A program made the translations under genes and the position numbers. 64,000 nt of DNA from an uncultured Campylobacterales bacterium (GTDB taxonomy: Bacteria; Campylobacterota; Campylobacteria; Campylobacterales; Arcobacteraceae): positions 248,001 through 312,000 of the forward strand of contig CANNFB010000002.1 of NCBI GenBank assembly GCA_947503785.1. Reading direction: 5' to 3'. The notes below the pieces were generated by a model. The model was not told the origin of the DNA and searched no databases. It saw only the letters and a program-made list of their open reading frames with translations. Position 1 is the first letter of the stretch, and each line of letters starts with the position of its first letter. Of this stretch, positions 27,833 to 45,530 are shown piece by piece.

Positions 27833-27859
27833 AACTAAAGTATAACTTTAGTTCTATTT
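27827..27859. terminator. Bidirectional hairpin overlapping the ends of purT and the convergent CDS
   Basis: AAATAGAACTAAAG-tataa-CTTTAGTTCTATTT, perfect 14-bp stem. Confidence 0.7.
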
Positions 27860-28931
27860 ATATTTTAAAAGAGCAAGAATAAGCCATACCTTCATCTTCA
27901 ATAGTATTTACATCAATTGTAGCACCTATCATAGTTGCTAAATTTTTCGCTTCAATAATATATTTGTTTTCCGTATCAGAAAGAAAGAGAGTATGAATAT
28001 TCTTCACTTCAAACCCATTATTTTTAACTACTAATTGAATAGTCTTTTTATGCTTAAAAATACTCACTTCAATTAGTTTATTAATCTTCCCTTTTTTCAT
28101 CTCTTTTTTTACTAAATCCATACATGATTGTTCAATAAAAGATGAGATAATATTTTCAAGATAAAGAATATTCATTTCTACTTCTTTTCTTAAATTTAAA
28201 TCTAAGTTATAATCTAAAGATATTCTATATCTAAAGTTTGCATAAATATAATTATCAGATCTTCTTTTATGTAATTCAAGTAAATAGTTAAGAACAGTAA
28301 AATCTTTTACTTGCTCACTTTCTTTATCAAAGTTGTTGATTACATATTCAAACTTTTTTAATTCTTCAAAATGTAAGGCAAAAGTATCGATGAGTTCAAA
28401 AATAAATGTACTATTAATTAAGTCTTCTACACCTAGTTTATTTAAATATTTATCAACAATTGTAGTATCAAACATTGTTACTAAGTATTTTAAATTAAAA
28501 ATTTTGTTCTTGATATTTGATAGAGTTTGAACATCTCTTAAAAGTTTCTTTTTAGATGCAGTAGGAATAACTTTAGTTTCTAAGTCCATTTCTAATAAAT
28601 CTAAAAAATTCTTATCATCATATATTAAATTTACAGTTTCAATCTGGCTTGATTTATTACACTCTAATAATAAAACCTTCATATATTCTTTAACAAGCTC
28701 TAAAGATTGATTTAGTTCAGAAACTATTAAAAGAATTTTATTTTGCATCAAATCATGTTGGTCATTTAGTATTTGTCGATTTAATTTTGTTTTTCCACCA
28801 TTTTCACTTATTAATATTTCATCAAAGATAAATAACTTATTAAAAATATCTGTAAAAGGCTTTATTTCTTCAGAAATATTTTTTATATGATGATTTACTT
28901 TTTCATTACATTCATCTACTATATTAGTCAA
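27858..28931 (-). CDS. Hypothetical protein with possible degenerate HATPase-like C-terminus (last gene of pilus-like locus)
   Basis: Helical N-terminal ~270 aa; C-term VVKNNG...YIIEAKNLATMIGATIDVNTIEDEGMAYSCSFKI weakly resembles GHKL ATPases. Confidence 0.5.
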   Translation of the reverse strand: MTNIVDECNEKVNHHIKNISEEIKPFTDIFNKLFIFDEILISENGGKTKLNRQILNDQHDLMQNKILLIVSELNQSLELVKEYMKVLLLECNKSSQIETVNLIYDDKNFLDLLEMDLETKVIPTASKKKLLRDVQTLSNIKNKIFNLKYLVTMFDTTIVDKYLNKLGVEDLINSTFIFELIDTFALHFEELKKFEYVINNFDKESEQVKDFTVLNYLLELHKRRSDNYIYANFRYRISLDYNLDLNLRKEVEMNILYLENIISSFIEQSCMDLVKKEMKKGKINKLIEVSIFKHKKTIQLVVKNNGFEVKNIHTLFLSDTENKYIIEAKNLATMIGATIDVNTIEDEGMAYSCSFKI

Positions 28932-28940
28932 AATTATACC

Positions 28941-29969
28941 TTATCGACAATTTTCATCTTCTACTAATAAATTAGTATCTACAAGTTGAACCCAATTTGA
29001 GTCATTATCTACAACCATTACATCACCAGATTTCTTTTTATAAATAGTGTCTAAATGTAACCAATTTGCTCTTTTCGCTTGAATAGTAAATTGATCATTA
29101 ATTTTTAAAACTCTTAAAATTGTTGCATTTAAATCATTTGTATTTCTTACATTTAATTTACTTTTATTTACTGTATATAAACATGCAGATAAATCTTTTT
29201 TTATAGTATTGTTTTTTATATTTGCAAAAGATTCTTTTACACTGTAGTTTTTTGCTTCTTTTACTACACTTATATCTTCTATTTTTTTACTTTCTTTTTT
29301 CTTTTCTTTTTTTACTACTTTTTCTATCTCTACTTTTGCTTCTTTCTTTAAATCACTTACAGATATTCCATAATTATTTAAATAAATCACATAACCATAA
29401 TCTTCATCAACTTTTTTATATAACTTGATAGTTTTTGTTCTTACATCAATTTTTATGATTTTATGACCTAAAATACTGTCACCTCTTACATATCTACCTT
29501 CAATATTAGAACTTAATTCACTATCTGCTTTTGCTGTACTTTTTTCATCAACTTTTAAGATTACATAATCTTTCCCATTAAAAGAGTACATACTTTTTAT
29601 TTTGATATCTTTTAATTTTTTAGTTCTTGTAAAATCACTAGTTAATCTAGCCATTTCATTTTGATGTTTAAATACATTTTTCTCATAATCTTCTTGTGAA
29701 ACTTCAAGTTTTTCAACATAAATACCTTGAGTACTTGTATTTGAATTCACATTCTTATTATTAGGATTAGTAGTTTTATTTTGAATTGAATCAATTTGTT
29801 CTTCTAGATAATCTTTTTCAAGTCCAGTTATACTTTTAAAAAAATTTTTTGATTGTTGGTCTAAAACATCTAATTTATCAACATTATCCATACTTTCTTT
29901 ATTTACTTCTTGGGCATATAAATTAATAACTGTAAAAATAAATACAATAATTAAACTAATTCTCTTCAT
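28941..29969 (-). CDS. Secreted/periplasmic pilus-locus protein with C-terminal SH3-like region
   Basis: Signal peptide MKRISLIIVFIFTVINLYA; C-term KLNVRNTNDLNATILRVLKINDQFTIQAKRANWLHLD; ATG at 29969 with AAGGAA RBS preferred over 30020. Confidence 0.6.
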   Translation of the reverse strand: MKRISLIIVFIFTVINLYAQEVNKESMDNVDKLDVLDQQSKNFFKSITGLEKDYLEEQIDSIQNKTTNPNNKNVNSNTSTQGIYVEKLEVSQEDYEKNVFKHQNEMARLTSDFTRTKKLKDIKIKSMYSFNGKDYVILKVDEKSTAKADSELSSNIEGRYVRGDSILGHKIIKIDVRTKTIKLYKKVDEDYGYVIYLNNYGISVSDLKKEAKVEIEKVVKKEKKKESKKIEDISVVKEAKNYSVKESFANIKNNTIKKDLSACLYTVNKSKLNVRNTNDLNATILRVLKINDQFTIQAKRANWLHLDTIYKKKSGDVMVVDNDSNWVQLVDTNLLVEDENCR

Positions 29970-29988
29970 TTTTTTCCTTTTAAAACTT

Positions 29989-32247
29989 TTACTTAAATAT
30001 GAATTCATAATTAAATCCACCTATATATGTTGGGTATTTCATAAAGAAATATTTATCTTCAACTCCATCTTTATCAGTTTTCATTATAGAAAAAGGATAA
30101 TCTTCAACAAAAAGAAAATCTTTATCTAAGTCAAGTAAATTAGAATTAAATATTGGTAGCATAACAGTATTCCCAATTCTGGATTGAGTTTCACCATTAG
30201 AGCCTTGATAAAAAACCATTTGACCCCAACAATACATTTGATTTTCAGTACTAATTCCACACATACCATTTTGATCTTCAATCATACGTATTATTTTCCA
30301 ATCAATATCGTTAATAGCATTTTTGAATAAAGTTTCTTCTTCAGTAGTATATGTATTTAATTTATTTATTTTTGTAAAATAATCACCTTTTAATTGATTT
30401 TTACTATTAACCCAAATAATGCCTTTTCCATAACTTTCATATTCTACTATGCTGCCACCAGCTTCAGCTTTACTTGAAATATCAACAGAAAGAATTTCAC
30501 CATCCACTGCTGCATCATAATCAATATGAGATTCAATTAAAGTACTGATATTCTCAACTTTTGCATCTTCATCTTTAGCTTGAGATATTTTATAAAAATT
30601 TCCATTAGCATCTTTTGCTATAACTGTTTGTTGTCCTGCAAGTATTGATTCAAAAGTTATGTCACTTTTTACAAGCTTTGGTTTACATAAATTAGCAGTT
30701 GAACAATTATTTCCACCTATTTGGCTATCCGTTCCCCATGTATATATTTCACCTGTCGTACTTAATCCCACCATTCTTCTAAAGCCGACACTAATCGTGT
30801 AGGTTAAATCTTTAAATTTTATATTAGTTGCCAGGAGAGTTGGTTCCTCGTTAGATTCGCTATCAGAGGCTCCAGTATAGCCCAATGTTGTATGATTTTG
30901 TCCCCAATAATAAATATATCCATCATCTGAAAGAACAAACCATGATGATAAAAGAGAAAATACTCTTTTGGCACGTTTTGTTATTTTTATCTTTCCTTCA
31001 ACAACTGTCTCAGTATTTGTACCATCGAAAAAAACACTTCGGTGAAGAATTTCAGTATTCTTTTTTATATCCCTATCATATCCTTCAAAGTCTATAAAAG
31101 TTTGATTAAGAACATAATCTCCAGCACAATAAAGTTCTCCTTTAGCAGTAATTGCACAAGTACCATGATAAACATCTGATGTAAAATCTACAAATTTAGG
31201 TCGTAAAGGAGAAGAAAAATAATTTTGATTATATAATTCATTATATACTATATCAGCAGCATCAATCTTCCCATCACCATTATTATCAACATTTTTCTTA
31301 CCATAAAGCCTTGATTTAGCTTTAACTAAAACACTAATCACTGCTTTACTATTTCCTATTGTACCATTTGCTGTACGATAAGTATTATTTCCAATACTAA
31401 CACCTTTGAGAACATTATTACCCCAAGTGTATAAATCACCATTTACAATCATTCCACCAGCACGTCTAGAAAACTTTAAAATTGTTTCTCCAATATCTCT
31501 GATAGTTCCACCTAATTTAACAATACCTACATCTCCACCAATATTAATATATTCTTGTGCTATTTCATCTTCCATATTAAATATTTGCTGGCCTGGAGAT
31601 AAAATCTTGTTATTATCTATAATTGTTTTAAAGGCAGGAGCAATTCCACCGACTAAATCAGTTCTACTTAAATCTTCGTAAATAATTAAACTTTTATCTA
31701 AAGAATAAACTAAGGTATCTCTATTATACCAATGAAGAACTCCATCATCATCTAAATAATACATACTTGTAGTTGTCGATTTTGCTGTATCTTCATCACT
31801 TGTAACTTCACTAGCTAAAGATAGAATATACGTTTCTTTAATAGAAAAAGAGATAGAAACATTATGATTTTTTTTGCTAAGAGGTGCTTTTGAATAAGTT
31901 CTGTTTTCATTTGAATAGTATTTATCATATAGTGCTGATTTTACATTTGAAGGTATTGAACTTATTATATAAGTTTTAGTATCATCTAAAGACATTGACC
32001 CTCCAAATAAATTTGAATTATTAAAGCCATTTGGTAAATAAGTTTTTAGACTTGTACTTTCTGAACCTAGTATTGAAGTTGGTTTTGAAGCTTTTGTCAG
32101 AACATATTTTTTATATGCTTTAGCAATTTGTTCTTCTTTTTTTATTACTTTTTTTATTTTTGATAAAGAAATGGTATCAAAGTACATCTCTTTTGAATAC
32201 AAAGTTATTGATAATAAACATATAATAAAAAGTTTAATAAAAATCAT
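29989..32247 (-). CDS. Secreted RCC1-like beta-propeller protein (pilus-locus)
   Basis: Signal peptide; RCC1-like blades LYTWGNN, CAITAKGELYCAGD, VLSDDGYIYYWGQN, GLSTTGEIYTWGTD, CGISTENQMYCWGQ; ends YPTYIGGFNYEFIFK. Confidence 0.75.
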   Translation of the reverse strand: MIFIKLFIICLLSITLYSKEMYFDTISLSKIKKVIKKEEQIAKAYKKYVLTKASKPTSILGSESTSLKTYLPNGFNNSNLFGGSMSLDDTKTYIISSIPSNVKSALYDKYYSNENRTYSKAPLSKKNHNVSISFSIKETYILSLASEVTSDEDTAKSTTTSMYYLDDDGVLHWYNRDTLVYSLDKSLIIYEDLSRTDLVGGIAPAFKTIIDNNKILSPGQQIFNMEDEIAQEYINIGGDVGIVKLGGTIRDIGETILKFSRRAGGMIVNGDLYTWGNNVLKGVSIGNNTYRTANGTIGNSKAVISVLVKAKSRLYGKKNVDNNGDGKIDAADIVYNELYNQNYFSSPLRPKFVDFTSDVYHGTCAITAKGELYCAGDYVLNQTFIDFEGYDRDIKKNTEILHRSVFFDGTNTETVVEGKIKITKRAKRVFSLLSSWFVLSDDGYIYYWGQNHTTLGYTGASDSESNEEPTLLATNIKFKDLTYTISVGFRRMVGLSTTGEIYTWGTDSQIGGNNCSTANLCKPKLVKSDITFESILAGQQTVIAKDANGNFYKISQAKDEDAKVENISTLIESHIDYDAAVDGEILSVDISSKAEAGGSIVEYESYGKGIIWVNSKNQLKGDYFTKINKLNTYTTEEETLFKNAINDIDWKIIRMIEDQNGMCGISTENQMYCWGQMVFYQGSNGETQSRIGNTVMLPIFNSNLLDLDKDFLFVEDYPFSIMKTDKDGVEDKYFFMKYPTYIGGFNYEFIFK

Positions 32248-32738
32248 TTTTTAATATCCTTTGCCTTTGATATATAATTTACAAAATAAATAGTATTGTT
32301 CTTCTCACTTTTTTTCATCTCACCTAAATAAGATAAAATACCCTCTCCTGCTTTTAAGCCTTCTTTACTTCTGGCTGTTAATTGCGTAACTATAATATAA
32401 TTATCTATACACATTTTTTTAGAATTTAAAAACTTTAGATTATAATCTAAAACTGACATTCTTTTATAAATATCTTTTATTTTACTATCTATTTCTTCTT
32501 TTTTAATATATTTAGATTCAATTTCCACCATTTTAGCTTTTGTCTTTACAACTTTTCTTTTTAAACTAAGTGTTTCTTGCTTTTTAATTTGAAGTTCTTT
32601 TGTGAGTTGTTCTTTTTCATAAACTAATTTAAAAAAACTTGCTAATTTAAAAAAGAAAAATCCAATAAGATATGCAACAAATATAAATAAACCTACTTTA
32701 ATAATTAGTTTAAATCTCTTATTATTAATACTAATCAT
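32244..32738 (-). CDS. Single-TM coiled-coil inner-membrane protein (PilO/GspM-like)
   Basis: N-terminal TM then long coiled coil; operon position between ATPase and RCC1-like genes. Confidence 0.45.
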   Translation of the reverse strand: MISINNKRFKLIIKVGLFIFVAYLIGFFFFKLASFFKLVYEKEQLTKELQIKKQETLSLKRKVVKTKAKMVEIESKYIKKEEIDSKIKDIYKRMSVLDYNLKFLNSKKMCIDNYIIVTQLTARSKEGLKAGEGILSYLGEMKKSEKNNTIYFVNYISKAKDIKK

Positions 32739-33487
32739 TTATTCACCTTATTAGGAGTAATACAATCAGTTAATTCCCTGTATTTTTTATCTGTTCTATT
32801 TAATAAGATTTTCTGTCGATGTATTAATCTTTTTTCTATTTTTATTTCTCTTTTTAGTTTTTCTAAAGGCTCTTTATAAATATATTTCTTTGTTAGTAAA
32901 TCTAATCCAAAAAACATAACCCAAACAATTAAAATTACAAATAGTAATATAAAAATATTTTTTCCAAAGTGTGATTTAAAAGTATCTAATTCATTTAAAG
33001 GTTTTATTAATTCTTCAACATTTCCTAAACTATATGCAATTTCTTCATCTTTCTCATTTTTAGTATTTTGTTTAAGAATATTTTCAACTGCACTTTTATA
33101 TTTTGAACTAATAACATAGTAGTATTTTTTAATACTTCCACCACTAGAAAGCATTGCTATATGTTTAGTAATCAGAATGGATTTTATTATATCATCAGTA
33201 ATGAAGTTTTGATTTATTTTTGCAGAATATACAGTTTTATGATTAAATAAAATAAAGTACTCACTATCTGTAATATGAACTAATAGTTGATTTTTATTTA
33301 GATATTCTCTTGATAGTAAATTTAGAGAATATATTTTATCTGTGATTTCATATTTGGATAAATATACACTATGCTTTTTAAAAGATTCGTATGTAAACAT
33401 TTTTTGAGAAATGTCAAAATCATCTTTAAGGTAGAAAGTTTCATTGTCTTCTTTAGTTGCAAAATCTGTAACTACTAATCGTACCAT
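32735..33487 (-). CDS. Inner-membrane pilus accessory protein (PilN/GspL-like position)
   Basis: Cytoplasmic-like N-terminus then TM NIFILLFVILIVWVMFFGLDLL, coiled-coil tail; overlaps ATPase gene by 13 nt. Confidence 0.45.
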   Translation of the reverse strand: MVRLVVTDFATKEDNETFYLKDDFDISQKMFTYESFKKHSVYLSKYEITDKIYSLNLLSREYLNKNQLLVHITDSEYFILFNHKTVYSAKINQNFITDDIIKSILITKHIAMLSSGGSIKKYYYVISSKYKSAVENILKQNTKNEKDEEIAYSLGNVEELIKPLNELDTFKSHFGKNIFILLFVILIVWVMFFGLDLLTKKYIYKEPLEKLKREIKIEKRLIHRQKILLNRTDKKYRELTDCITPNKVNK

Positions 33488-35142
33488 ACTTCCTCCCCTT
33501 TGATAATTGCTGTTGCATCTGCTTTTGTAATAAGTCCTGCATTATATTGTGCCATACAAGCTTTTTCAACTGTCATATATTCAGCTGGGTTTTCAAAGTC
33601 ACCACCAAATCCTAATTTGAATCTAATAACCTCAGCGATTGGAACCCTATCTTTAAATCCACTATTATTACATTCCTCACAACCAACTTTTTTATAGCCA
33701 CCTTCTCCATCTTCTTCTTTACAGAAATCACAAAGTTTACGAACTAACCTCTGAGATACAATACCTCTTAAGTTATCTACTACATCTCCTTCATTAATAC
33801 CTAATGAACTAGTCATTCTTGATACTGTTGCAGGTGCTGAGTTGGTATGCATAGTAGAGAATACCAATTGACCCAAGTTTGATGCATTTACTAATTGTGA
33901 TGCAGTTTCTGGCTCTCTTGTTTCCCCAATAAGAATAATATTTGAATCTTGTCTTAAAATATCAACTACGGCTTCAGGGTAACCATATTTAAACTCTTCA
34001 CTAGCACTTGCAAACTCTGACAAGTCAATTTGGAAGAAAGATTCATCCACATACTCAACTGGATCTTCAATAGTAATTACATATTGCTGTTGTTTAGCAA
34101 GTTCTTGTAGTAATGCGTACATTAAATGTGTTTTACCAGAACCTACTTGACCAGTAATTAAAATCATACCATTTGAGTATTTTGTTAAGTTATCAAGAAT
34201 ATCGACTGTTTCGCTAGGATAATTAAGTCCTCTTAAGTTATGAGAAACTACACCTTTACCACCAATCATTCTCATTACAAGCGAAAAATTTAGTTTAGAG
34301 TTAATAAGACCAAGTCTAAATTTAATATTTTTCTTTCCATAATCATAATTAATTACACCGTTAATTGATTCAAAATCAGAATCTTCTTGATCTGCCATAG
34401 TAACAAGTCTTCTTTTAATTGTTTTTGCAATTGCAATTGGCATTGTTCCCATATCAACTTTAATACCATCAATTCTAAACCATAAAGAAGCAAATCTATT
34501 TGTTTTTTGAATATGTATATCTGAAGCACCCAATAAAATTGCTTGTCCCATCATCTTGTCAAAGTACTTATTAATTTCCTCATCATTATCAGTATCTGAT
34601 GAAGAGCCAAAGATAATCTCTCTATCTTCTCCAAATACTGAAGATAATACACCCTCACCTAAAACAACAATTTTTGTAAAGTAAAACTTACTTAATACAT
34701 CAAAATCTAAGTTTACAACATCTCTAATACCTAGAACTTTATTTTTTGTCTTTTTATCTTCAAGAGTAATAATATACATTGTTGTACAAAACTCTAGCTT
34801 TCTTTCATCTAATTGAAATGATGTATCTTGATATAGCTTTGATAGTTCGTTATAAGAAGCATAATACTCATAACCTAAGCTTCTTACAAATTCTGCATAT
34901 TTTGATTCATTTGCAATTAAATCAGAATAACCACCAGAAAAATTAAATTTTTCTTTTATCACATCTTCAATAAGAGTAGACAAGACAGTATCTTTTTCTT
35001 CTTCTTTATTTATATACTGAGTAAGTGCTGTTTTTTTTTCTTCAAAAAATTCTTTTATATTAATTTTTTTGTTTTTTTTGCTTTTTTTATTAAATAAAGA
35101 AAGGTTTCTTGATTTATATCTTTTGATTAATTTTTTTATCAT
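33475..35142 (-). CDS. GspE/PilB-family secretion/assembly ATPase
   Basis: Walker A ITGQVGSGKTH, Asp box VITIEDPVEYVDESFFQID, Walker B IILIGETREPETA, His box LVFSTMHTN, tetracysteine CDFC...CEEC. Confidence 0.93.
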   Translation of the reverse strand: MIKKLIKRYKSRNLSLFNKKSKKNKKINIKEFFEEKKTALTQYINKEEEKDTVLSTLIEDVIKEKFNFSGGYSDLIANESKYAEFVRSLGYEYYASYNELSKLYQDTSFQLDERKLEFCTTMYIITLEDKKTKNKVLGIRDVVNLDFDVLSKFYFTKIVVLGEGVLSSVFGEDREIIFGSSSDTDNDEEINKYFDKMMGQAILLGASDIHIQKTNRFASLWFRIDGIKVDMGTMPIAIAKTIKRRLVTMADQEDSDFESINGVINYDYGKKNIKFRLGLINSKLNFSLVMRMIGGKGVVSHNLRGLNYPSETVDILDNLTKYSNGMILITGQVGSGKTHLMYALLQELAKQQQYVITIEDPVEYVDESFFQIDLSEFASASEEFKYGYPEAVVDILRQDSNIILIGETREPETASQLVNASNLGQLVFSTMHTNSAPATVSRMTSSLGINEGDVVDNLRGIVSQRLVRKLCDFCKEEDGEGGYKKVGCEECNNSGFKDRVPIAEVIRFKLGFGGDFENPAEYMTVEKACMAQYNAGLITKADATAIIKGEEVWYD

Positions 35143-35151
35143 TTTTTCATC

Positions 35152-36168
35152 TTATTGGTACAATGTTTTAAAAGTAAATGTACTTATAACTAAATTTATA
35201 ATATCTGAACCTATTATTACTGTAACAAGCATAGCTATTAACCAAAAAAGAAGTCTCCATTGAATAACCATATATGCAATGTTCTTTTCATACATAGTGT
35301 CACAAGTTTGATATAAAGCTTTTGTTACATCAGCAAAACTTGTTTGACTTAATTCTGATAGTTTAATATCAGCTGTTATTAATGGAGGGAAATTATACTT
35401 TTCAAAAACTAAAAATAGCTTTTTATTCTTACTTATAATATCAGCTAATTCTCCAAAAAAAGGACGTAAACCTAATTTGAAATAATCTTTTGAAAGAATT
35501 AATGATGTCTTATGAAAAGAAATACCAGCACTTAACATTCCATTTAGAATCCTAAACATAAATCTACCATCTGAGTAACATTGTGTTTTAAATACTTTGT
35601 ATAACCATGCGGGCTTATATTTTTCAGTATATACATATCCTAAGAATATAAATAGGGTCACAAAAATTGAAACTCCAAGCCCTAAATATGCAAATTCATA
35701 TGTAAAGTATCCAGGAACACCCAAAAAAGATTCTACATCAGAATTTAGTTTTCGTAATCCTATTAAATCTTTTTCAAGCATTCCTAAATATAAAATCAAG
35801 CCATAAAAAGAAAAAATGATAATTGATAAAGGTACAAATATAGGATTAATCATTTTAGGTAAGAGGTTTGAGTTTGCTTTAGCAAAGGATTGGACTAATT
35901 TTAAACCATCTACGGTATTAGTACTATTTACTACTAAACTATATTGAAAATCGTTTAAAAACTTATTTTTATGTAAAATCGCTTCTAGCTTATGCTTTCC
36001 GATTTCCATATCTTTAATAGCAGCCTCAAGTCTTTTTTTAAATCTTGTCTCTTTTGTAATTTGTTCTTTGTATAAAAGTAAAGCTTTTCTAGTATTAGAT
36101 CCATTTTCTAATTTTGTTACTAGATAATCTAGTAAAAATTGTTCATAAGGATCAGCAAACATACTCAT
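35152..36168 (-). CDS. GspF/PilC-like inner-membrane platform protein
   Basis: Three predicted TM segments; RFMFRILNGMLSAGISFHKTSLIL GspF-like motif. Confidence 0.7.
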   Translation of the reverse strand: MSMFADPYEQFLLDYLVTKLENGSNTRKALLLYKEQITKETRFKKRLEAAIKDMEIGKHKLEAILHKNKFLNDFQYSLVVNSTNTVDGLKLVQSFAKANSNLLPKMINPIFVPLSIIIFSFYGLILYLGMLEKDLIGLRKLNSDVESFLGVPGYFTYEFAYLGLGVSIFVTLFIFLGYVYTEKYKPAWLYKVFKTQCYSDGRFMFRILNGMLSAGISFHKTSLILSKDYFKLGLRPFFGELADIISKNKKLFLVFEKYNFPPLITADIKLSELSQTSFADVTKALYQTCDTMYEKNIAYMVIQWRLLFWLIAMLVTVIIGSDIINLVISTFTFKTLYQ

Positions 36169-36170
36169 TA

Positions 36171-37826
36171 TTAGAAGCCTTTAATACTTTGTACAGAAAC
36201 AACATATACTATTTCTCTTCTTATATAAGATTTTGAATCACTTCCACCAATAGCAAAGCCTTCTAAAGGAAGAATACCTTCATACTCTTTTGCATCATCA
36301 TGAACAATAATCGAACCAACAATAGAAGTTTCTCCAACTTTTATTTCTCTTGAAATATTATAACTTTGATCTTTATACTCTGGTAATTGAATTGTTGCAT
36401 CTCCAACTTTAGCTTCAGAAATTTTTATTAGTTTTTTAATATTTGGTGTAATATTTAAAAATAGTTTATCCCTAGATATCTTTGCCATAGCAGTTATTGA
36501 AGTACCATCTTTAATAGTATTTACAGTAGCTTCTGATGTTGTTACATTGTCATTTACTGTTGTTTCAATTTTTTCTATATAATCTGTATTTTGACTAATT
36601 GATTGAACAGATGGAATATTGTTTTTTAATACCATAACATTTTTACTATAGTTTAATATTTTTCCTATTTCATTATCTATTGTTCCCGTAACTTCTAGAA
36701 GTCTTGTTGTTCCTTGATTAAGAAAGGAAAGTGCTCCTTCTGTTGCTAAAGATTTTGTAATTCCTGTTGATGTTGAAGGACCTGCTGTTCTTTTTATTGA
36801 ACCAATACCATATTCTCTACTTTTGTTTAAAACTAATTCAATTCTTTCAAATACAATTGTAGCTTCTCTTGCAAAACTATCTTCATATGCTTTTGCAATA
36901 GTTCTAACAGTTGCTTCTACACTTTTTGTAGCCTTCATAAAAATAAGGCCACTTGCTTTATCGATATGATATGTAGAAATAGTATCATTTCCAATTATAT
37001 TTTTCATCATTTTATCTAGTTCATCATAGAGTATTATTTCTGAACTATTTTCAACTTTACTTTCACCAGTTGTTTCACTTGATGATGTTTCGTTTGATGT
37101 TGTGATATTTAATAAAGGAATATTTAGTTCAACAACAATATCTTTATATCTTTTTATATTAATCATCTCTTTATCATAATCAATATCTACATAAACATTT
37201 TTAGCATGTCCTAAAGAATCAATAGCATTTATTAAATTCTTTGATTTTATTGAAACAATACTATTTTGAAAATCATCTTTATTTTTAATATAATTTCCAA
37301 TTGAAACCTCATAACCTGATTGGGCAGTAATTAGTTTGATTAATTCTTCTACTGAGATTTGACCATCTAAATTAAAAGGAATATCTTTAATAGATTGTTT
37401 TTTAGTTTCACTTGAACTTAAAAGTTTTACTAAATATATTGACCCACTTTTTTTAATAAAAAGTTCTTTATCAAGTACGGCGTTTAAATACTGATTTAAT
37501 TCTGCCATATTATGAATTTTCATTCTACTTTTAGGTACTAAAATATCACTACTTTTTAAATAGTAAAAATTGCCATCAATAAGCTCTAGCTCTTTTAAAA
37601 CATCACTTAATGATTTATCACTTAAGATATTTATAAACTCTTTATTTCTATTTTTTTCATCTACTAGTTTTTCAGAGTAAGAGTTTCTTACTTCCTCATA
37701 ACTTTTTTCATTTACTATTTTTTTTGCCTCGGCTGTCATTTCATTGTGATAACTCTTATTTGAACAAGCACTAGCTAATATAATAATTGACATATAGAAG
37801 ACAGATATTTTTAATATTTTTAACAT
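36171..37826 (-). CDS. Lipoprotein secretin (type IVB pilus PilN/BfpB-like)
   Basis: Lipobox IILASAC; C-terminal secretin-like beta domain ...DKLFLNITPNIKKL...IQLPEYKDQSYNISREIKVGETSIVGSIIVHDDAKEYEGILPLEG. Confidence 0.75.
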   Translation of the reverse strand: MLKILKISVFYMSIIILASACSNKSYHNEMTAEAKKIVNEKSYEEVRNSYSEKLVDEKNRNKEFINILSDKSLSDVLKELELIDGNFYYLKSSDILVPKSRMKIHNMAELNQYLNAVLDKELFIKKSGSIYLVKLLSSSETKKQSIKDIPFNLDGQISVEELIKLITAQSGYEVSIGNYIKNKDDFQNSIVSIKSKNLINAIDSLGHAKNVYVDIDYDKEMINIKRYKDIVVELNIPLLNITTSNETSSSETTGESKVENSSEIILYDELDKMMKNIIGNDTISTYHIDKASGLIFMKATKSVEATVRTIAKAYEDSFAREATIVFERIELVLNKSREYGIGSIKRTAGPSTSTGITKSLATEGALSFLNQGTTRLLEVTGTIDNEIGKILNYSKNVMVLKNNIPSVQSISQNTDYIEKIETTVNDNVTTSEATVNTIKDGTSITAMAKISRDKLFLNITPNIKKLIKISEAKVGDATIQLPEYKDQSYNISREIKVGETSIVGSIIVHDDAKEYEGILPLEGFAIGGSDSKSYIRREIVYVVSVQSIKGF

Positions 37827-37835
37827 TTACTAACC

Positions 37836-40700
37836 TTACTTAAAATAAAACTCATAATCGAACCCTCCAATATAAGTAGGAAATTTAAGATGTAAATTTC
37901 CATCATTATTAAACTTATCATATGACATAGGGATTTCTTTATCCGATTCTTCTGTAATAAATAATTTATTTATACTGTTTATTTTATCCATATCATATAA
38001 AGATGTACTTAATATAGGAATACTTCTAGCTATATTTCCCCAACAATACATTTGGGACTTAGAACCAAATCCTGTCATTGCACATACAAATTTTTTGTTT
38101 GTTTCTTTAACTTTTATTTTTACATTATCAATTCCCCAAGATTCATTTTCTACATCTTCATTATAACTTCCTTGATAATAAGTACGAGAATAATGATTAG
38201 CATAAGGAAGATCATATTCAAACTGAGTTTTAAACTTTAAAGTAACATTTCCGGAAGAATCTAGCTTTGATCTTAATTTATAGCTATAACTCTGGTCTCC
38301 TGCATAACCTGTATTAGGATTTATATTATCTTGTAAGTTAATACCCGTAATATTTGTATCTTTTAAAGTCTCATGCCAATCAAAAATAAAGTGATCCACA
38401 GATAAAAGTTCACCATTTGCATAAACTTCAAATCTTTCACCATCCCAAGTATCTATTTCATAAAAATCAAATTCGATATCAATCTCATGATTCGGATAAG
38501 ATGGAAAGCTATAAGTTTTACTAACTTCATAATAATCTTTTGTTTCATTTACTGCAATAGGAAATCTACCTAGAAAATCAGTAGAGGGAAGTTGCGTTTG
38601 AGTATCTGTTTGATCAAGATCAACTGTAGTAATCATATTGTTATCACTAGAATTAGTAGCTGTCCAACCACTTGTAGCTGTTTCAAAATTTTCAGATTGG
38701 GTACTTAATACTCTATCTAATTTAAAAATGCCTGCATTAGTGAACGTAGCATACATCTTTCCCTTTATATTATTCAATTTTGTATTTAATTGATTAAAAG
38801 CTAATGTAAATATGTCATTACTATTATCATCATTATTACATTCATCAATTTCATTGGCTTTCATACATTTAAGTAATTCAGGACTTCCCTTTAATTCTAA
38901 ATATTCATTTATATATGTAAAAAAATTACCATAAACAGAAACACTTATCGCAGTATTTGGAATATTTAGTTTTTTAGTGCTATTACTATTTGTTGTTTGA
39001 TAAAAGAAATTATCAAGTCCTTTTAATACAAACTCATTTGTATTTATAAAAATTGCATCTTCGTTATACCTTCTATTATCATTTAAACGTGTTGGCTTGT
39101 TATAAATTTCACCATTTGGTCTTCCTCCCCAAATCCAAAAATAATTTTCCTCATCAATAGCTCCAAATCCTCTAATATCTCTAAGAGCAAAGATTTTTTT
39201 AAAAATTGTACTGCCATTGATTTTTGAAGGTGTTGTAGATATGATAAACTTATCACTACTTCCAATTCCTAAAGCACCTTTATAATTTCGTCCAAAAGTA
39301 TAAATGTCTCCTGTATCAGATAAAACAGCTGCAGTATCTTCAACCATTACAATATCTTTTAGATATATTTCATTACCATCATTTGTTTTATCTTCTTTGC
39401 CTATTCCAAAAAATATATTTTTTTTCAAAATAGAAGTTGATTTAACAGTAGATGATAAATCTTCAAAATATGAAGAAGAAATATTTCCATTACAAAATAA
39501 ATCTCCTCCAACTTTTTGACTAAATTCTTCATCTGGATCTAGAAATATTGGCGAAATAGCACATACATTTGTACTATTCATTGCCATTTTTTCAAATTTT
39601 ACTCTATATGGATTGTTATACCAGTTTTTAGCATGCCGTGTAGACTCAATTCCATTATCATCCGTATATTTTTTTGTTTTATCTATTTGAGCTTTTAACA
39701 TTATGGGAGTATTTACATAATCAGGTTTTAATGTTTTATCAATTTGCCCATAACTTTCAATTCCTACTTTTTTATATTTATTATTACCCCAACAAAAGAT
39801 ATCACCATTTGCAAGCATGCATCCTCCATCTTGCCTAAAAACTAAATCTTTAGAACCGGGGATATACTTAAGTATCAAGTCTTCTAAATCTTGACTTTCA
39901 TCAGCTTCATTTACATCTGAACCTAAATATACAGCAACCCAAGGAAGATTTGTGTCACCTTGATAATAGTATTCATACCATATACCATTTTTCTTTGCGT
40001 ATGCTTTGTCTCCTATTTTTGCTTTTATATATTTTAATTCACTTGAATCTTCTACATAAATAGGAGAATCTTGATATACAGTAATAGGATTATCAACAGT
40101 TTTACAATACTTGTAAGTTAATTCTTTTCCTTTTAACTCATAATAATGAGTATTTACTACACAGTCTTGACTATCAAGTTTTATTGTATTATTACTTGAT
40201 AAATTAACTGTTTGTACTATTTCTTTTTGAATTGAAGAGTAAAGAACTTGAGAACCTATTTTTAGTTTTTCTACTGTTGTATCTATTGGTGCTAAAGTAT
40301 TTACTCTAAATATTCTACTTGCATAAAAATTATATAAATATTTTAAATCTTCATCGTATGAAGATTCTGGCTCTTCCAAAGTTCCTATATTAGCAACAAC
40401 TCCCCGAATAAAAAAGTTGTAAGTTTTAGGCTCATAATAAACATCGATATCATCAGAAGTTAATAGATTCTTTCTATTAAAGAGTTCACCTAAATAATCT
40501 TTATGTTCTAATTTTTCCCAATCTAATTTATTTGAATCTGTTTTAGGAATAGTTCCTGTTTGTAATATATATTTATTAATTGCCAAAGCAATATATTCTT
40601 CTTTTTGAATAACACTTTTTAGGGCATTCATCCTAGATATATTTAGACTATTTGCAAAACTGATGTTTATTAATAATAAAACAAAAAGTAAAAATCTCAT
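37836..40700 (-). CDS. Large secreted RCC1-like beta-propeller protein with inserted LamG/jelly-roll-like domain
   Basis: Signal peptide; CMLANGDIFCWGNN, VLSDTGDIYTFGRN, MYCWGN blades; insert EIDIEFDFYEIDTWDGERFEVYANG...ESWGIDNVKIKV; ends FPTYIGGFDYEFYFK. Confidence 0.75.
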   Translation of the reverse strand: MRFLLFVLLLINISFANSLNISRMNALKSVIQKEEYIALAINKYILQTGTIPKTDSNKLDWEKLEHKDYLGELFNRKNLLTSDDIDVYYEPKTYNFFIRGVVANIGTLEEPESSYDEDLKYLYNFYASRIFRVNTLAPIDTTVEKLKIGSQVLYSSIQKEIVQTVNLSSNNTIKLDSQDCVVNTHYYELKGKELTYKYCKTVDNPITVYQDSPIYVEDSSELKYIKAKIGDKAYAKKNGIWYEYYYQGDTNLPWVAVYLGSDVNEADESQDLEDLILKYIPGSKDLVFRQDGGCMLANGDIFCWGNNKYKKVGIESYGQIDKTLKPDYVNTPIMLKAQIDKTKKYTDDNGIESTRHAKNWYNNPYRVKFEKMAMNSTNVCAISPIFLDPDEEFSQKVGGDLFCNGNISSSYFEDLSSTVKSTSILKKNIFFGIGKEDKTNDGNEIYLKDIVMVEDTAAVLSDTGDIYTFGRNYKGALGIGSSDKFIISTTPSKINGSTIFKKIFALRDIRGFGAIDEENYFWIWGGRPNGEIYNKPTRLNDNRRYNEDAIFINTNEFVLKGLDNFFYQTTNSNSTKKLNIPNTAISVSVYGNFFTYINEYLELKGSPELLKCMKANEIDECNNDDNSNDIFTLAFNQLNTKLNNIKGKMYATFTNAGIFKLDRVLSTQSENFETATSGWTATNSSDNNMITTVDLDQTDTQTQLPSTDFLGRFPIAVNETKDYYEVSKTYSFPSYPNHEIDIEFDFYEIDTWDGERFEVYANGELLSVDHFIFDWHETLKDTNITGINLQDNINPNTGYAGDQSYSYKLRSKLDSSGNVTLKFKTQFEYDLPYANHYSRTYYQGSYNEDVENESWGIDNVKIKVKETNKKFVCAMTGFGSKSQMYCWGNIARSIPILSTSLYDMDKINSINKLFITEESDKEIPMSYDKFNNDGNLHLKFPTYIGGFDYEFYFK

Positions 40701-41408
40701 TTAATCCACCTTTACAATATCTGTAACAGTTTTTATATATTTACCACTATTATTTACAAAAATAAAGGTACCAACATTTAATTTATCTAGTTTTACACTT
40801 GATAGAAGTCCACTTGTACTTACAGTCACATTACCTTCTTCAAAATCTTCATTATTGTATTCAATCCAATTTAAATTAACATCATACCATCTAATTGTAT
40901 TTAAATTTGTAATACAATAACTCTCTTTTAAAGGAGCATCACAGTCACTTGTAATAGTAGAACCTGTTTCTAAAATTTCTAAAATATTCTCTGCAACTTT
41001 TGATTTTAATTCAAAAGAAACATAAGAATTACTTAGAGTATCTTTATCTTTATAAACAGTTGTCATATCTCGATATAAATCTCTTTCATATAAAGCAGTA
41101 ACATATAACTGCAAATTTTCTTGAGTAATTGCATATTTTATTTTTAAATTCTCACCCGAAACAAAATCTATATTAGAACCAAATTTATTTGTACTTGTGA
41201 AATTACTTCCTAAATACTCATCTATTTTTAATTTATCAAGAGTTGGAACTTCAAACTTTTCTAATAAATATTTTTCAAAATTACTTGCTATTTTTTCTTC
41301 TACTTCTATTAGGTTTTGTACGTATAACACATTTTGTTGTTGTACTACTAATGTATCTTTTGCATTTAAAAAGCTATAGAATAAATATAGTATTATTAAT
41401 ATTTTCAT
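40701..41408 (-). CDS. Secreted protein sharing the pilus-locus N-terminal module
   Basis: Signal peptide; LIEVEEKIASNFEKYLLEKFEVPTLDKLKIDEYLGSNF. Confidence 0.6.
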   Translation of the reverse strand: MKILIILYLFYSFLNAKDTLVVQQQNVLYVQNLIEVEEKIASNFEKYLLEKFEVPTLDKLKIDEYLGSNFTSTNKFGSNIDFVSGENLKIKYAITQENLQLYVTALYERDLYRDMTTVYKDKDTLSNSYVSFELKSKVAENILEILETGSTITSDCDAPLKESYCITNLNTIRWYDVNLNWIEYNNEDFEEGNVTVSTSGLLSSVKLDKLNVGTFIFVNNSGKYIKTVTDIVKVD

Positions 41409-42148
41409 TATTTCACCACTTCTATTGAATCTCTTGTTTTTATATATTTTACAGCTTCTGTATCATATAAAAGTGCACCTTTAGGAATTGAAGTAAACTC
41501 ATCATTAGAGTGTAATCCAGTATCTTTTGTGATTATAATTGGACCTGTTTTAAACTTTTCTACTGAATAGTACATTAGAAGTTCAGCTGCATTTTGAGTC
41601 TCATCTTTATAAATATATATTACATTTTTATCTTCAAGTTCTTTATTCCAACAATATTTTTTCTTTGGAATATCTCCACATTTAATTAGATTAAATCCAG
41701 CAGTTGAACTTAAAAAATATAAATGATTTGCAAAATCATCTTCAAGTTTTATTCCTATTTTATCACTATCATAAAAATAAGTTTTTTTTCTAAATAAGTC
41801 ACTTTCATACAAGTTTTTTATACTTACATCATTTTCTAATGCTGTACCTTTTAATCTATTATTTATTTCTTTTTTAAAGCCAAAATCTGTTATTGATGCA
41901 ACTTCTCCAACTACAAATGGTGTTAAGGAGAAAGCTGTTCCTAGATATTCATCTGTTTTTAAGTTAGAAAAAGTTGTCGGTAGTTTTTTTGTATTTAGAA
42001 TATAGCTTTCATAAGCACGGGCTATTGATTCTTCTTCTTGAATAATCGTTTTTACTTTTAAAAACAATTCCTGCTGTGCTATATACACAGCATCATCTGC
42101 ATTTAAAATGTTTAGTGTTAAAAAAAATGTTAAAAGTATTTTTATCAT
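41408..42148 (-). CDS. Secreted protein sharing the pilus-locus N-terminal module
   Basis: Signal peptide; IIQEEESIARAYESYILNTKKLPTTFSNLKTDEYLGTAF; 1-nt junction with downstream gene. Confidence 0.6.
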   Translation of the reverse strand: MIKILLTFFLTLNILNADDAVYIAQQELFLKVKTIIQEEESIARAYESYILNTKKLPTTFSNLKTDEYLGTAFSLTPFVVGEVASITDFGFKKEINNRLKGTALENDVSIKNLYESDLFRKKTYFYDSDKIGIKLEDDFANHLYFLSSTAGFNLIKCGDIPKKKYCWNKELEDKNVIYIYKDETQNAAELLMYYSVEKFKTGPIIITKDTGLHSNDEFTSIPKGALLYDTEAVKYIKTRDSIEVVK

Positions 42149-42903
42149 AATTCATCTTTCAAGAGGTAATATAGTTTTGTTTCCATAGCATTTTTATTTA
42201 AAATCAATTCTTCTTTTATTCTTTTTTTAAAAAACTCTTCTTTCCTCAACTTTATTTTTTCAGGAGTTAATTCTGCTATATCTGAATCTTTTCTCATATC
42301 TTGGTAAATATCATTATATGGAGTATATTTTCCAGATACGAGGCCTTCACCTATTACAGTTTTTAATACTGCATCAAGATCAACACTTGCTGTTGCATAC
42401 AAAATAGCTGTACTTAAATACTCTATCGCTTTTGCTACACTTTCTTCAATAGATATATTTTTATTTACAATATTTTTATCTTTTTTACCAACAATAAAAG
42501 TATGTGTTCCCTCACTTACATTTTCAGTATTTCTATCTGATAAGTTATTTAGTTTTGCTCTTAAAGCAAAAAGTTTTAACTGTTCACTTTCATTTAATAC
42601 AAAATTACCATCAACATCGACTAAAGCATCATTTGCAAGTGTACTAGAACTATTTCGGTCTAAAAGCAAAACCTTTTCCCAGTTTCCACCAGCAGGTAAA
42701 TGCATTATAATTTCATCACGTGTTACTTCATCTGGATTTTTATTGTATTGCTTGGCTAATAATGTTTTTATGTCAGATATAATTTGATAGTTTTCTTGAA
42801 TTTGTTTAGCTTCTTGAGTATCAGAATATGATTTATATACAGAAGATGCTGAAAATATAGCTGTAACAATTAGTGCTGATGATAGCCATATATTTCCTAA
42901 CAT
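42145..42903 (-). CDS. Pilin-like protein with N-terminal hydrophobic helix
   Basis: MLGNIWLSSALIVTAIFSASSVYKSYSDTQEAKQIQENYQIISDIKTLLAKQY; pilin-like hydrophobic then amphipathic helix. Confidence 0.5.
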   Translation of the reverse strand: MLGNIWLSSALIVTAIFSASSVYKSYSDTQEAKQIQENYQIISDIKTLLAKQYNKNPDEVTRDEIIMHLPAGGNWEKVLLLDRNSSSTLANDALVDVDGNFVLNESEQLKLFALRAKLNNLSDRNTENVSEGTHTFIVGKKDKNIVNKNISIEESVAKAIEYLSTAILYATASVDLDAVLKTVIGEGLVSGKYTPYNDIYQDMRKDSDIAELTPEKIKLRKEEFFKKRIKEELILNKNAMETKLYYLLKDEL

Positions 42904-43006: not shown

Positions 43007-43792
43007 TTATTCTACGATTGTTTGAGGCATATCTTTAAAGTAAATTGTAAAGATTCCATCATCCAATGCTGATGTAGCCGTTCCCTTATTACCAGCTGCA
43101 TCTACAACTCCTGCAGGTCTATTTCCAACAGGAACTTCTCCATCTGCTAATAAATCAACAGCAGATCCATCAATTGTTGTTCTATCAATTCCTGCTACTG
43201 CTTGTAAATCTGTAGCAATTTGACTTTCTAAAAATGCAGCATTACCTGCTAGCGCATTTAATAATTGAACTCTAATACCAGGTCTAGTAGCTGAATCACC
43301 AACAACCATACTTAAATTCATTCCAGGGTTAGTCTCTCCACCAAAAGAAATCGCAGAATAAGTATTTTGCTGACCGGCTGTATTAGTAGTAGCATTGTAC
43401 GCACTAACAGTTGTTGCATTATTACCAATTTCATCATTCATTTGATCAGCAAAATAACCTAAAACAGCTAATCCTATTAGTGTACTATCTCCTGCAGGTA
43501 TAGCAGCTCTTGCTGGTATTGCATCAACTGGAGCAACATAGTCAGTATCTCCAGGAGTTCCAACTTCTGCAACCGCAGCAACTGCTGCTTGTGAAGCAAC
43601 TGCAATAACAGATTTCTCTATATCTCCAGCTCTAACTGCTAACTGTAAACCATTTCTAATATTATTAATTTCTGTAATAATACTTGTTTTTTGTGCGATA
43701 CCTTCAATCTTATCACCTGTTCCACCAAATGTTTGGAACATATAAATCATTGCTCCAACTACTACGATAACCATTGCTATTAACTGTGGCAT
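43007..43792 (-). CDS. Pilin-like protein, leaderless (candidate major pilin)
   Basis: MPQLIAMVIVVVGAMIYMFQTFGGTGDKIEGIAQKTSIITEINNIRNGLQLAVRAG; RBS AAGGA; in-frame stops just upstream exclude a longer leader. Confidence 0.6.
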   Translation of the reverse strand: MPQLIAMVIVVVGAMIYMFQTFGGTGDKIEGIAQKTSIITEINNIRNGLQLAVRAGDIEKSVIAVASQAAVAAVAEVGTPGDTDYVAPVDAIPARAAIPAGDSTLIGLAVLGYFADQMNDEIGNNATTVSAYNATTNTAGQQNTYSAISFGGETNPGMNLSMVVGDSATRPGIRVQLLNALAGNAAFLESQIATDLQAVAGIDRTTIDGSAVDLLADGEVPVGNRPAGVVDAAGNKGTATSALDDGIFTIYFKDMPQTIVE

Positions 43793-43876
43793 TTTAATCC
43801 TTTTTTATTAATTTTAATTTTTTCCTACCTACCTACCAAATGTTTATAATTTATAAATTTTTATAAATCACACCAA

Positions 43877-44416
43877 TTACTTAAATACTATACAAACAAA
43901 CGAACCATCACTAGTTGTTCCATCTACATCAAAAGTTTCTGCTCCAGCTGTAGAGTCATAGGTCTTTCCATTAACTTGAAATGTTCCAAATAAAGTTTTT
44001 TCACAAAACTCTCTACCTGAAAAACTCTCAGAGAAAATAGCCTTACTCATCAATCCTGCACTTCCAGTCATATTAACTAATAGTTTATATGAATTACTAA
44101 TAACTATAGGATTGCGATTTGGTATTATCTGCCAAACAACATTATTATTAGGCAACGTTAATGTTGAGGCTAAACCTACTCCATTAACTGTTGAATTGCT
44201 TAGTAATACTCCTGAAGTATCAAGTTCTTCAAAATTGATATCAGTTAAATCACCACCACTATCAACATAAGTATTAACAAATCCATCCACCATTGAAAAC
44301 ATCACTTTCATGTTCGCAAGCTCTGCTTTTATAGTACTATCATCTGCTTCATATCTTGTAAGTAAAAGTGTCAAAGCTGCAACAATAGCGATAATAGATG
44401 CAACAATATATGGCAT
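43877..44416 (-). CDS. Pilin-like protein, leaderless, with C-terminal Cys pair
   Basis: MPYIVASIIAIVAALTLLLTRYEADDSTIKAELANMK...; CEKTLFGTF...SFVCIVFK; RBS AAGGAAG. Confidence 0.6.
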   Translation of the reverse strand: MPYIVASIIAIVAALTLLLTRYEADDSTIKAELANMKVMFSMVDGFVNTYVDSGGDLTDINFEELDTSGVLLSNSTVNGVGLASTLTLPNNNVVWQIIPNRNPIVISNSYKLLVNMTGSAGLMSKAIFSESFSGREFCEKTLFGTFQVNGKTYDSTAGAETFDVDGTTSDGSFVCIVFK

Positions 44417-44726: not shown

Positions 44727-45530
44727 TTACCTATTCTCTTCTTTATTTTTATACATTAAATCATCAACTATAACTAATATATCTTCGATGTTGTCTTCTT
44801 TTTTAAAAGGTGTGATTCCATATGAAAAAGAAAATTTAAGTTTTTTAATTTTTGAAGATGAAAGAACTATTTTTGATAGTTTATCTTGTGTCTCTTTCAT
44901 TTTTTTATCAGGATTTAAGATTGTTGATTTATTTTTATTAAATAATACAATAAATTCATCACCCGCATATCTTAAAATATCTACAGCAGGGTTATCTAAC
45001 TCTTTTTGTAAAAAGTTAACCAAATATTTTAGAATTTGATCACCTACTATATGCCCATAATTATCATTGATAGATTTAAATTTATCTAAGTCAAGAAAAA
45101 CTATAAACCCATCATTTTTAAATAAGTCATCTTTTAAATAATAATCTGAAAACCATTTTCTATTATAAGCACCAGTTAATGGATCAGAAAAAAGTTCTTT
45201 TTGTAAAAAATCAATTTGCTTTTGCATTTCAACTAAGTCGTTATTTATAATACTCAAAGAAGCATCATCCTTATCATGAATCGCTTTTCTAGCATTTGTA
45301 GTTGATGTTTGTAATGCACTTAGATTATCACTAGTTTTTTTTACAATACTATCAACATGCGATGAATCTTGTTGTAAATCTTTTAAGATGATTTTTTCAT
45401 CATCAATATTTACTTTTAATTCTTTTGCATAGTTTTCAAAAATATCAGAGTATTTTCCAGGAAGAATGATTGATTGTTTTTTTAAATCTTTTATTGTTAA
45501 ATACGTAATCTCTTCTAATTTATTACTCAC
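44727..45530 (-). CDS. GGDEF-domain diguanylate cyclase
   Basis: DPLTGAYNRKWFSDYY, FLDLDKFKSINDNYGHIVGDQIL, RYAGDEFIVLF (AGDEF variant). Confidence 0.88.
   Translation of the reverse strand: MSNKLEEITYLTIKDLKKQSIILPGKYSDIFENYAKELKVNIDDEKIILKDLQQDSSHVDSIVKKTSDNLSALQTSTTNARKAIHDKDDASLSIINNDLVEMQKQIDFLQKELFSDPLTGAYNRKWFSDYYLKDDLFKNDGFIVFLDLDKFKSINDNYGHIVGDQILKYLVNFLQKELDNPAVDILRYAGDEFIVLFNKNKSTILNPDKKMKETQDKLSKIVLSSSKIKKLKFSFSYGITPFKKEDNIEDILVIVDDLMYKNKEENR

Follow-up and report, generated by a model that had tools for sequence, protein, structure and literature searches.

Can a type 4 filament be assembled from subunits that are translated without a prepilin leader? Prepilins are defined by a class III signal peptide, whose leader invariably ends in Gly or Ala (PMC10191384), and the prepilin peptidase is counted as an ancestral part of the type-4-filament machinery (PMC10191384, PMC6668835). 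The question is raised by two minus-strand ORFs in the window, the whole stretch of 64,000 nucleotides analysed here (G000:C2:248001-312000, within a 2.76-Mb genome). According to the original prediction, both products are leaderless, pilin-like proteins that begin with Met-Pro and a hydrophobic helix behind good ribosome-binding sites (AAGGA and AAGGAAG), and we found the starts and ribosome-binding sites of both as described. Subunit 1 (43877..44416; 179 aa; MPYIVASIIAIVAALTLLLTRY, M-P-YIVASIIAIVAALTLLLTRYEADDS...) and subunit 2 (43007..43792; 261 aa; MPQLIAMVIVVVGAMIYMF, M-P-QLIAMVIVVVGAMIYMFQTFGGTGDK...) are encoded by the first two genes of a 14-gene minus-strand operon (44416->27858), the gene order of which is kept across the clade.

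Judged from its gene sequences, the setting of the two ORFs is a type-4-filament machine. The ATPase (33475..35142, minus strand; 555 aa, with a tetracysteine motif) matched T2SSE (PF00437) at E 2e-65, which places it in the PilB/GspE family as an extension ATPase, and its nearest solved structures in the PDB were GspE (4pht, E 2.8e-44) and PilB (5zfr, E 4.4e-40). A secretin, as needed for a diderm type 4 filament, is present as a secretin-like outer-membrane lipoprotein (36171..37826, minus strand; 551 aa) with the lipobox LASAC and an invariant Cys21; its matches to MshL (E 1.4e-9) and PilN (E 1.8e-6) lay below the cut-offs, and it was 23-27% identical to its homologue in locus L023. The divergent inner-membrane platform protein (35152..36168, minus strand; 338 aa, PilC/GspF-like) resembled Pfam T2SSF at E 0.018 only, below the cut-off, and had no match in a PDB search. 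It is 71-94% identical across the clade (94% to Poseidonibacter lekithochrous, the closest named relative, which places the genome in the Arcobacteraceae) and homologous to the platforms of related systems with ordinary prepilins. Among these more distant Campylobacterota systems, G075/L023, G043/L024 and G190/L129 have a secretin homologous to that of this operon, and in L023 and L024 the platform and ATPase are homologous as well, with bitopic proteins in addition. Their gene order differs and their pilins carry both leader and Glu5 (KKG|ITLIEIILAIV, RKA|ISMVEVILVII, GG|FTSLELILTL).

Two bitopic proteins are encoded beyond the ATPase gene on the same strand, one with a cytoplasmic domain and a transmembrane segment (32735..33487; 250 aa; kept in the operon, no family match; PilO/PilL-like by position and topology only) and one with a coiled coil (32244..32738; 164 aa; no credible family; PilP/PilO-like by position and topology only). 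The remaining genes, also on the minus strand, encode mostly secreted or exported products. Two giant RCC1-repeat proteins (37836..40700, 954 aa, PF00415 at E 1.3e-8; 29989..32247, 752 aa, RCC1_2 at E 8e-12), both kept in the operon, are candidate tip adhesins; they may serve as filament tip adhesins or as cargo. To our knowledge, these giants and several of the signal-peptide proteins have no counterpart in type 4b or MSHA operons. The giants share the C-terminal tail PTYIGGF(D/N)YEFxFK, and their N-terminal signal peptide and helical domain (EExIAxAYExYIL) recur in two smaller secreted paralogues (41408..42148, 246 aa; 40701..41408, 235 aa). An exported protein (28941..30020; 359 aa) matched SH3_3 weakly (E 0.002, below the cut-off), and a conserved operon protein (27858..28931; 357 aa) is the last product. 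Directly behind the two subunit genes lies that of a third helix-start protein (42145..42903, minus strand; 252 aa; MLGNIWLSSALIVTAIF...), conserved in the operon and putatively minor pilin-like or accessory. Its uncharged hydrophobic helix also begins straight from the N-terminus without a charged leader (MLGNIW...; MFSNIF... in relatives), and its residue 2 is unsuited to Met removal. A family search with this protein gave no match, and profile comparisons between it, the secreted paralogues and the two subunits revealed no similarity.

Subunits 1 and 2 themselves are homologous (hhalign E 3.8e-7), and their iterative profiles merge. We compared 52 distinct proteins of both families, in which residue 2 was Pro in 47, Ala in 4 and Gly in 1. 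Pro at this position occurred in 0/154 other ORFs of the same loci (ATG-started, at least 150 aa), so its prevalence is not due to chance. Residues 1-19 held no Asp, Glu, Lys or Arg, and no acidic residue occurred within residues 1-20. Without Met1, the sequence PQLIAM falls in register with the canonical FTLIEL; the would-be mature position 5, where Glu5 is frequent in pilins but not universal, was Ala, Ser or Gly, or once Leu, in all 52. Pairwise identity in the subunit 2 family was 83% over residues 1-22, 76% over residues 23-48 and 40% from residue 49 to the end, a pattern that indicates a functional N-terminal helix rather than a mis-called start. The N-terminal 48 residues of subunit 2 are near-invariant; about residues 60-103, a 40-residue Ala/Pro-rich insertion is seen in this genome and is absent from relatives. 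Subunit 1 has two invariant cysteines, C138 and C175, both in its C-terminal domain, where type IVb pilins likewise have two conserved cysteines. In a distant relative (G243), both subunits start MPLLIA.

AlphaFold2 models of both proteins showed an α1 helix of about 54 residues from residue 2-3, broken at about residues 21-25 and followed by a mixed α/β head. The helix spans residues 2-55 in subunit 2 (2-21 and 26-55, with the break at 22-25) and 3-52 in subunit 1 (3-20 and 26-52), a length and break that match known pilins. A hydrophobic α1N of 20-25 residues running into α1C, as expected of a pilin, is present, with α1N itself predicted at low confidence. Overall model confidence was modest (pLDDT 64 and 69, pTM 0.64 and 0.66), and the N-terminal helix was among the least certain parts. 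Foldseek searches with both models returned nothing significant; TcpB (7w64, E 4.3) and an ETEC type IVb pilus (9iuf, E 2.4) were among the chance-level matches. Given this modest confidence and the lack of a significant Foldseek match, a pilin fold is not established. Searches of Pfam, NCBIfam and PDB sequences with both subunits were likewise without significant result.

A weak match to a conventional prepilin was obtained for one of the subunits. The globular C-terminal domain of the subunit 1 family aligned with the L023 prepilin at E 3e-4, whereas none of 101 controls, of which 41 were unrelated and 60 shuffled, scored better than 0.019. The match was limited to one of four prepilins tested and, since eight family-target pairs were tried, it is suggestive rather than conclusive; subunit 2 had no significant profile match to any conventional prepilin tested. 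The term pilin-like is supported by operon context, the predicted α1 and weak globular homology but is not proven, the Foldseek, Pfam and PDB searches being without significant match. On this evidence, the two proteins are probably derived type-4-filament subunits, that is, pilins whose prepilin leader has been lost. Because the defining feature of ordinary type 4 pilins, the class III signal peptide, was looked for and is absent, we do not file them as such; they are proposed to work like type 4 pilins, as a derived variant.

A different reading is that the two proteins stay fixed in the inner membrane as accessory parts of a type-4-filament machine whose true pilins are PilD-processed prepilins encoded elsewhere. 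N_methyl proteins and further ATPase systems are indeed encoded elsewhere in this genome, and an accessory role would fit proteins that have neither leader nor Glu5 nor a significant pilin fold or family match. Such a role nevertheless appears doubtful: filament subunits typically combine a near-invariant α1N with a variable surface domain, and the predicted α1 of about 54 residues and the globular homology to a prepilin also speak for subunits. Moreover, the conventional prepilin motif was absent from all ORFs of the 11 operon loci, whereas the related systems keep their prepilins beside the secretin or platform gene.

It is also conceivable, although unlikely, that the operon encodes a separate kind of machine for secretion or adhesion, built on the same core of ATPase, platform and secretin. 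Its leaderless helices would then make up not a surface pilus but a short pseudopilus in the periplasm, which would push the RCC1 proteins out in the manner of a type II secretion system. The operon has no PilT-like retraction ATPase, it encodes four secreted proteins including the two RCC1 giants, and its ATPase is slightly nearer to GspE than to PilB in the PDB. Against this, the lipobox secretin with its MshL/PilN similarity points to pili, and a surface-exposed position would suit two diverse subunits whose heads vary. The distinction touches the length and role of the filament only and is compatible with leaderless subunits.

In the window, the frame ahead of subunit 2 is interrupted by stops 5 and 6 codons upstream of its ATG, in agreement with the stops soon upstream that had been reported for this gene, and the first in-frame stop upstream of subunit 1 lies 16 codons before its start. 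In the first ten genomes checked, the upstream frame was closed by a stop at a distance of 2-8 codons in most subunit 1 homologues outside the closest relatives, which leaves no room for a leader in those. The sequence LRKK ahead of MPY in close relatives is merely the translated Shine-Dalgarno sequence. Throughout these ten genomes, both genes almost always had a good ribosome-binding site at normal spacing ahead of the ATG, the upstream frames were stop-rich and unconserved, and the proteins were conserved from residue 2 on. The further copies begin at this position too, in most cases behind a good ribosome-binding site and with stops a short way upstream. On account of the stops and unconserved frames, a hidden leader from an upstream or non-AUG start was rejected for the ten genomes; translation from a non-AUG start, named in the original prediction as the result that would overturn it, is thus not supported. 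In place of a leader ending in Gly or Ala, 52/52 proteins start with Met-Pro, Met-Ala or Met-Gly directly before the helix. The designation leaderless is therefore upheld, by a conserved start, no Gly/Ala-ended leader, no Glu5 and no conventional prepilin in the 11 operon loci. That both proteins are nevertheless ordinary prepilins, made with a leader from an upstream non-AUG start or cut by PilD at an unusual site, is close to refuted: PilD is encoded in all 33 genomes searched and a few subunit 1 homologues start MA-Y or MG-Y, where Ala or Gly could in principle be the -1 residue, but the upstream frames run into stops within 2-16 codons, the ribosome-binding sites are set immediately before the Met-Pro codons, residue 2 is Pro rather than Gly or Ala in 47/52, and the helix has no basic residues ahead of it.

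We then have to ask how leaderless pilins would mature in a cell that has PilD. As had been suggested, the genome was searched for a PilD homologue outside the locus, and an intact one was found at C8 (265 aa, with the zinc-finger cysteines and GxGD; one PF01478 match). Each of the 33 genomes searched (this one and 32 others) had at least one copy of PilD (PF01478), none of them in the operon; among the operon-bearing genomes, 26/26 had PilD and none was without it. Conventional candidate substrates (N_methyl proteins) are encoded elsewhere in this genome, and both subunits offer PilD no cleavage site. Since PilD is encoded elsewhere in all genomes searched, these results point to independence of the substrates, not absence of the enzyme. 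The idea that such subunits are assembled without a prepilin peptidase or with an unusual one is thereby narrowed: assembly without PilD is the inference that fits these subunits best, the enzyme itself is encoded in the genome, and an unusual or new peptidase is unneeded because Met-Pro, Met-Ala and Met-Gly are standard substrates of methionine aminopeptidase. Removal of Met from such starts is textbook activity of this enzyme, and the leader can therefore be replaced by the initiator Met.

In the mechanism that we propose, the chain would enter the inner membrane in N-in/C-out orientation, its export favoured by the acidic residues (EADD, GDK-E) just behind the helix. Removal of Met1 by methionine aminopeptidase would then expose Pro1 (P-Q-L-I-A-M, in register with F-T-L-I-E-L). 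The mature subunit would never be a PilD substrate and presumably would not be N-methylated by PilD; it would be extracted by the ATPase and platform and polymerised through the secretin. In this way the initiator Met would take the place of the leader, subunit register would be set by other means than contact of Glu5 with the N-terminus, and PilD would be retained for other systems, this operon's subunits having left its substrate set. On balance, we lean towards a filament with conserved subunits that, save for the initiator Met, are mature as translated and are assembled without PilD cleavage, N-methylation or Glu5. It would have evolved within the Arcobacteraceae out of a system that had ordinary prepilins.

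Type 4b pili (R64 thin pilus, TCP, BFP) and MSHA pili resemble this system in their clustered genes, a lipobox secretin (with weak MshL/PilN similarity here), a single PilB/GspE-type ATPase and a platform protein. MSHA loci are without a prepilin peptidase of their own and are thought to borrow one (PMC6668835); for this operon, too, PilD is encoded elsewhere in the genome. This operon differs from both in that its subunits have neither leader nor Glu5 and its platform is far from Pfam T2SSF. A tip-capping subunit without Glu5 has been described (PMC10191384). Minor tip pilins of the GspK/PilX type lack Glu5 as the present subunits do, but they keep a PilD-cleaved leader, and there is one such subunit per filament, whereas both conserved subunits lack Glu5 here. 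In the related system G004/L128, which likewise has a homologous secretin, a pilin-like protein with an atypical start (KGMRKAMISIADWSGEGILLAVIATIAF; L128:3919-4548) is without a standard Gly/Ala-xxxxE motif. No description of leaderless or PilD-independent pilins was found in the open-access literature searched. If the proposal is true, a natural system without leader and Glu5 would mean that neither is intrinsically required, and it would become possible to separate what cleavage, N-methylation and Glu5 each contribute to membrane extraction and to subunit register. Searches by prepilin motif may miss such systems, as suggested by the fact that no Pfam pilin signature reached its cut-off on these proteins.

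Profile searches found the subunit 2 family in 26/107 Arcobacteraceae genomes, in 8/20 genera. No credible match was obtained outside the Arcobacteraceae in an even sample of the phylum; a single match, in G431, was rejected as spurious. One genome (G267) has subunit 2 in two tandem copies (L111:1311-2804, minus strand) and in a third copy that is more divergent (L108); each of the three starts MPQ. In G057, a 400-aa transposase-like ORF (L022:7666-8868) splits the platform gene, so the system may be broken there; the pilin-like genes are intact. Directly upstream of the operon, here and in P. lekithochrous, lies a gene for a GGDEF-domain protein (44727-45530, minus strand), through which a link of the operon to c-di-GMP is possible.
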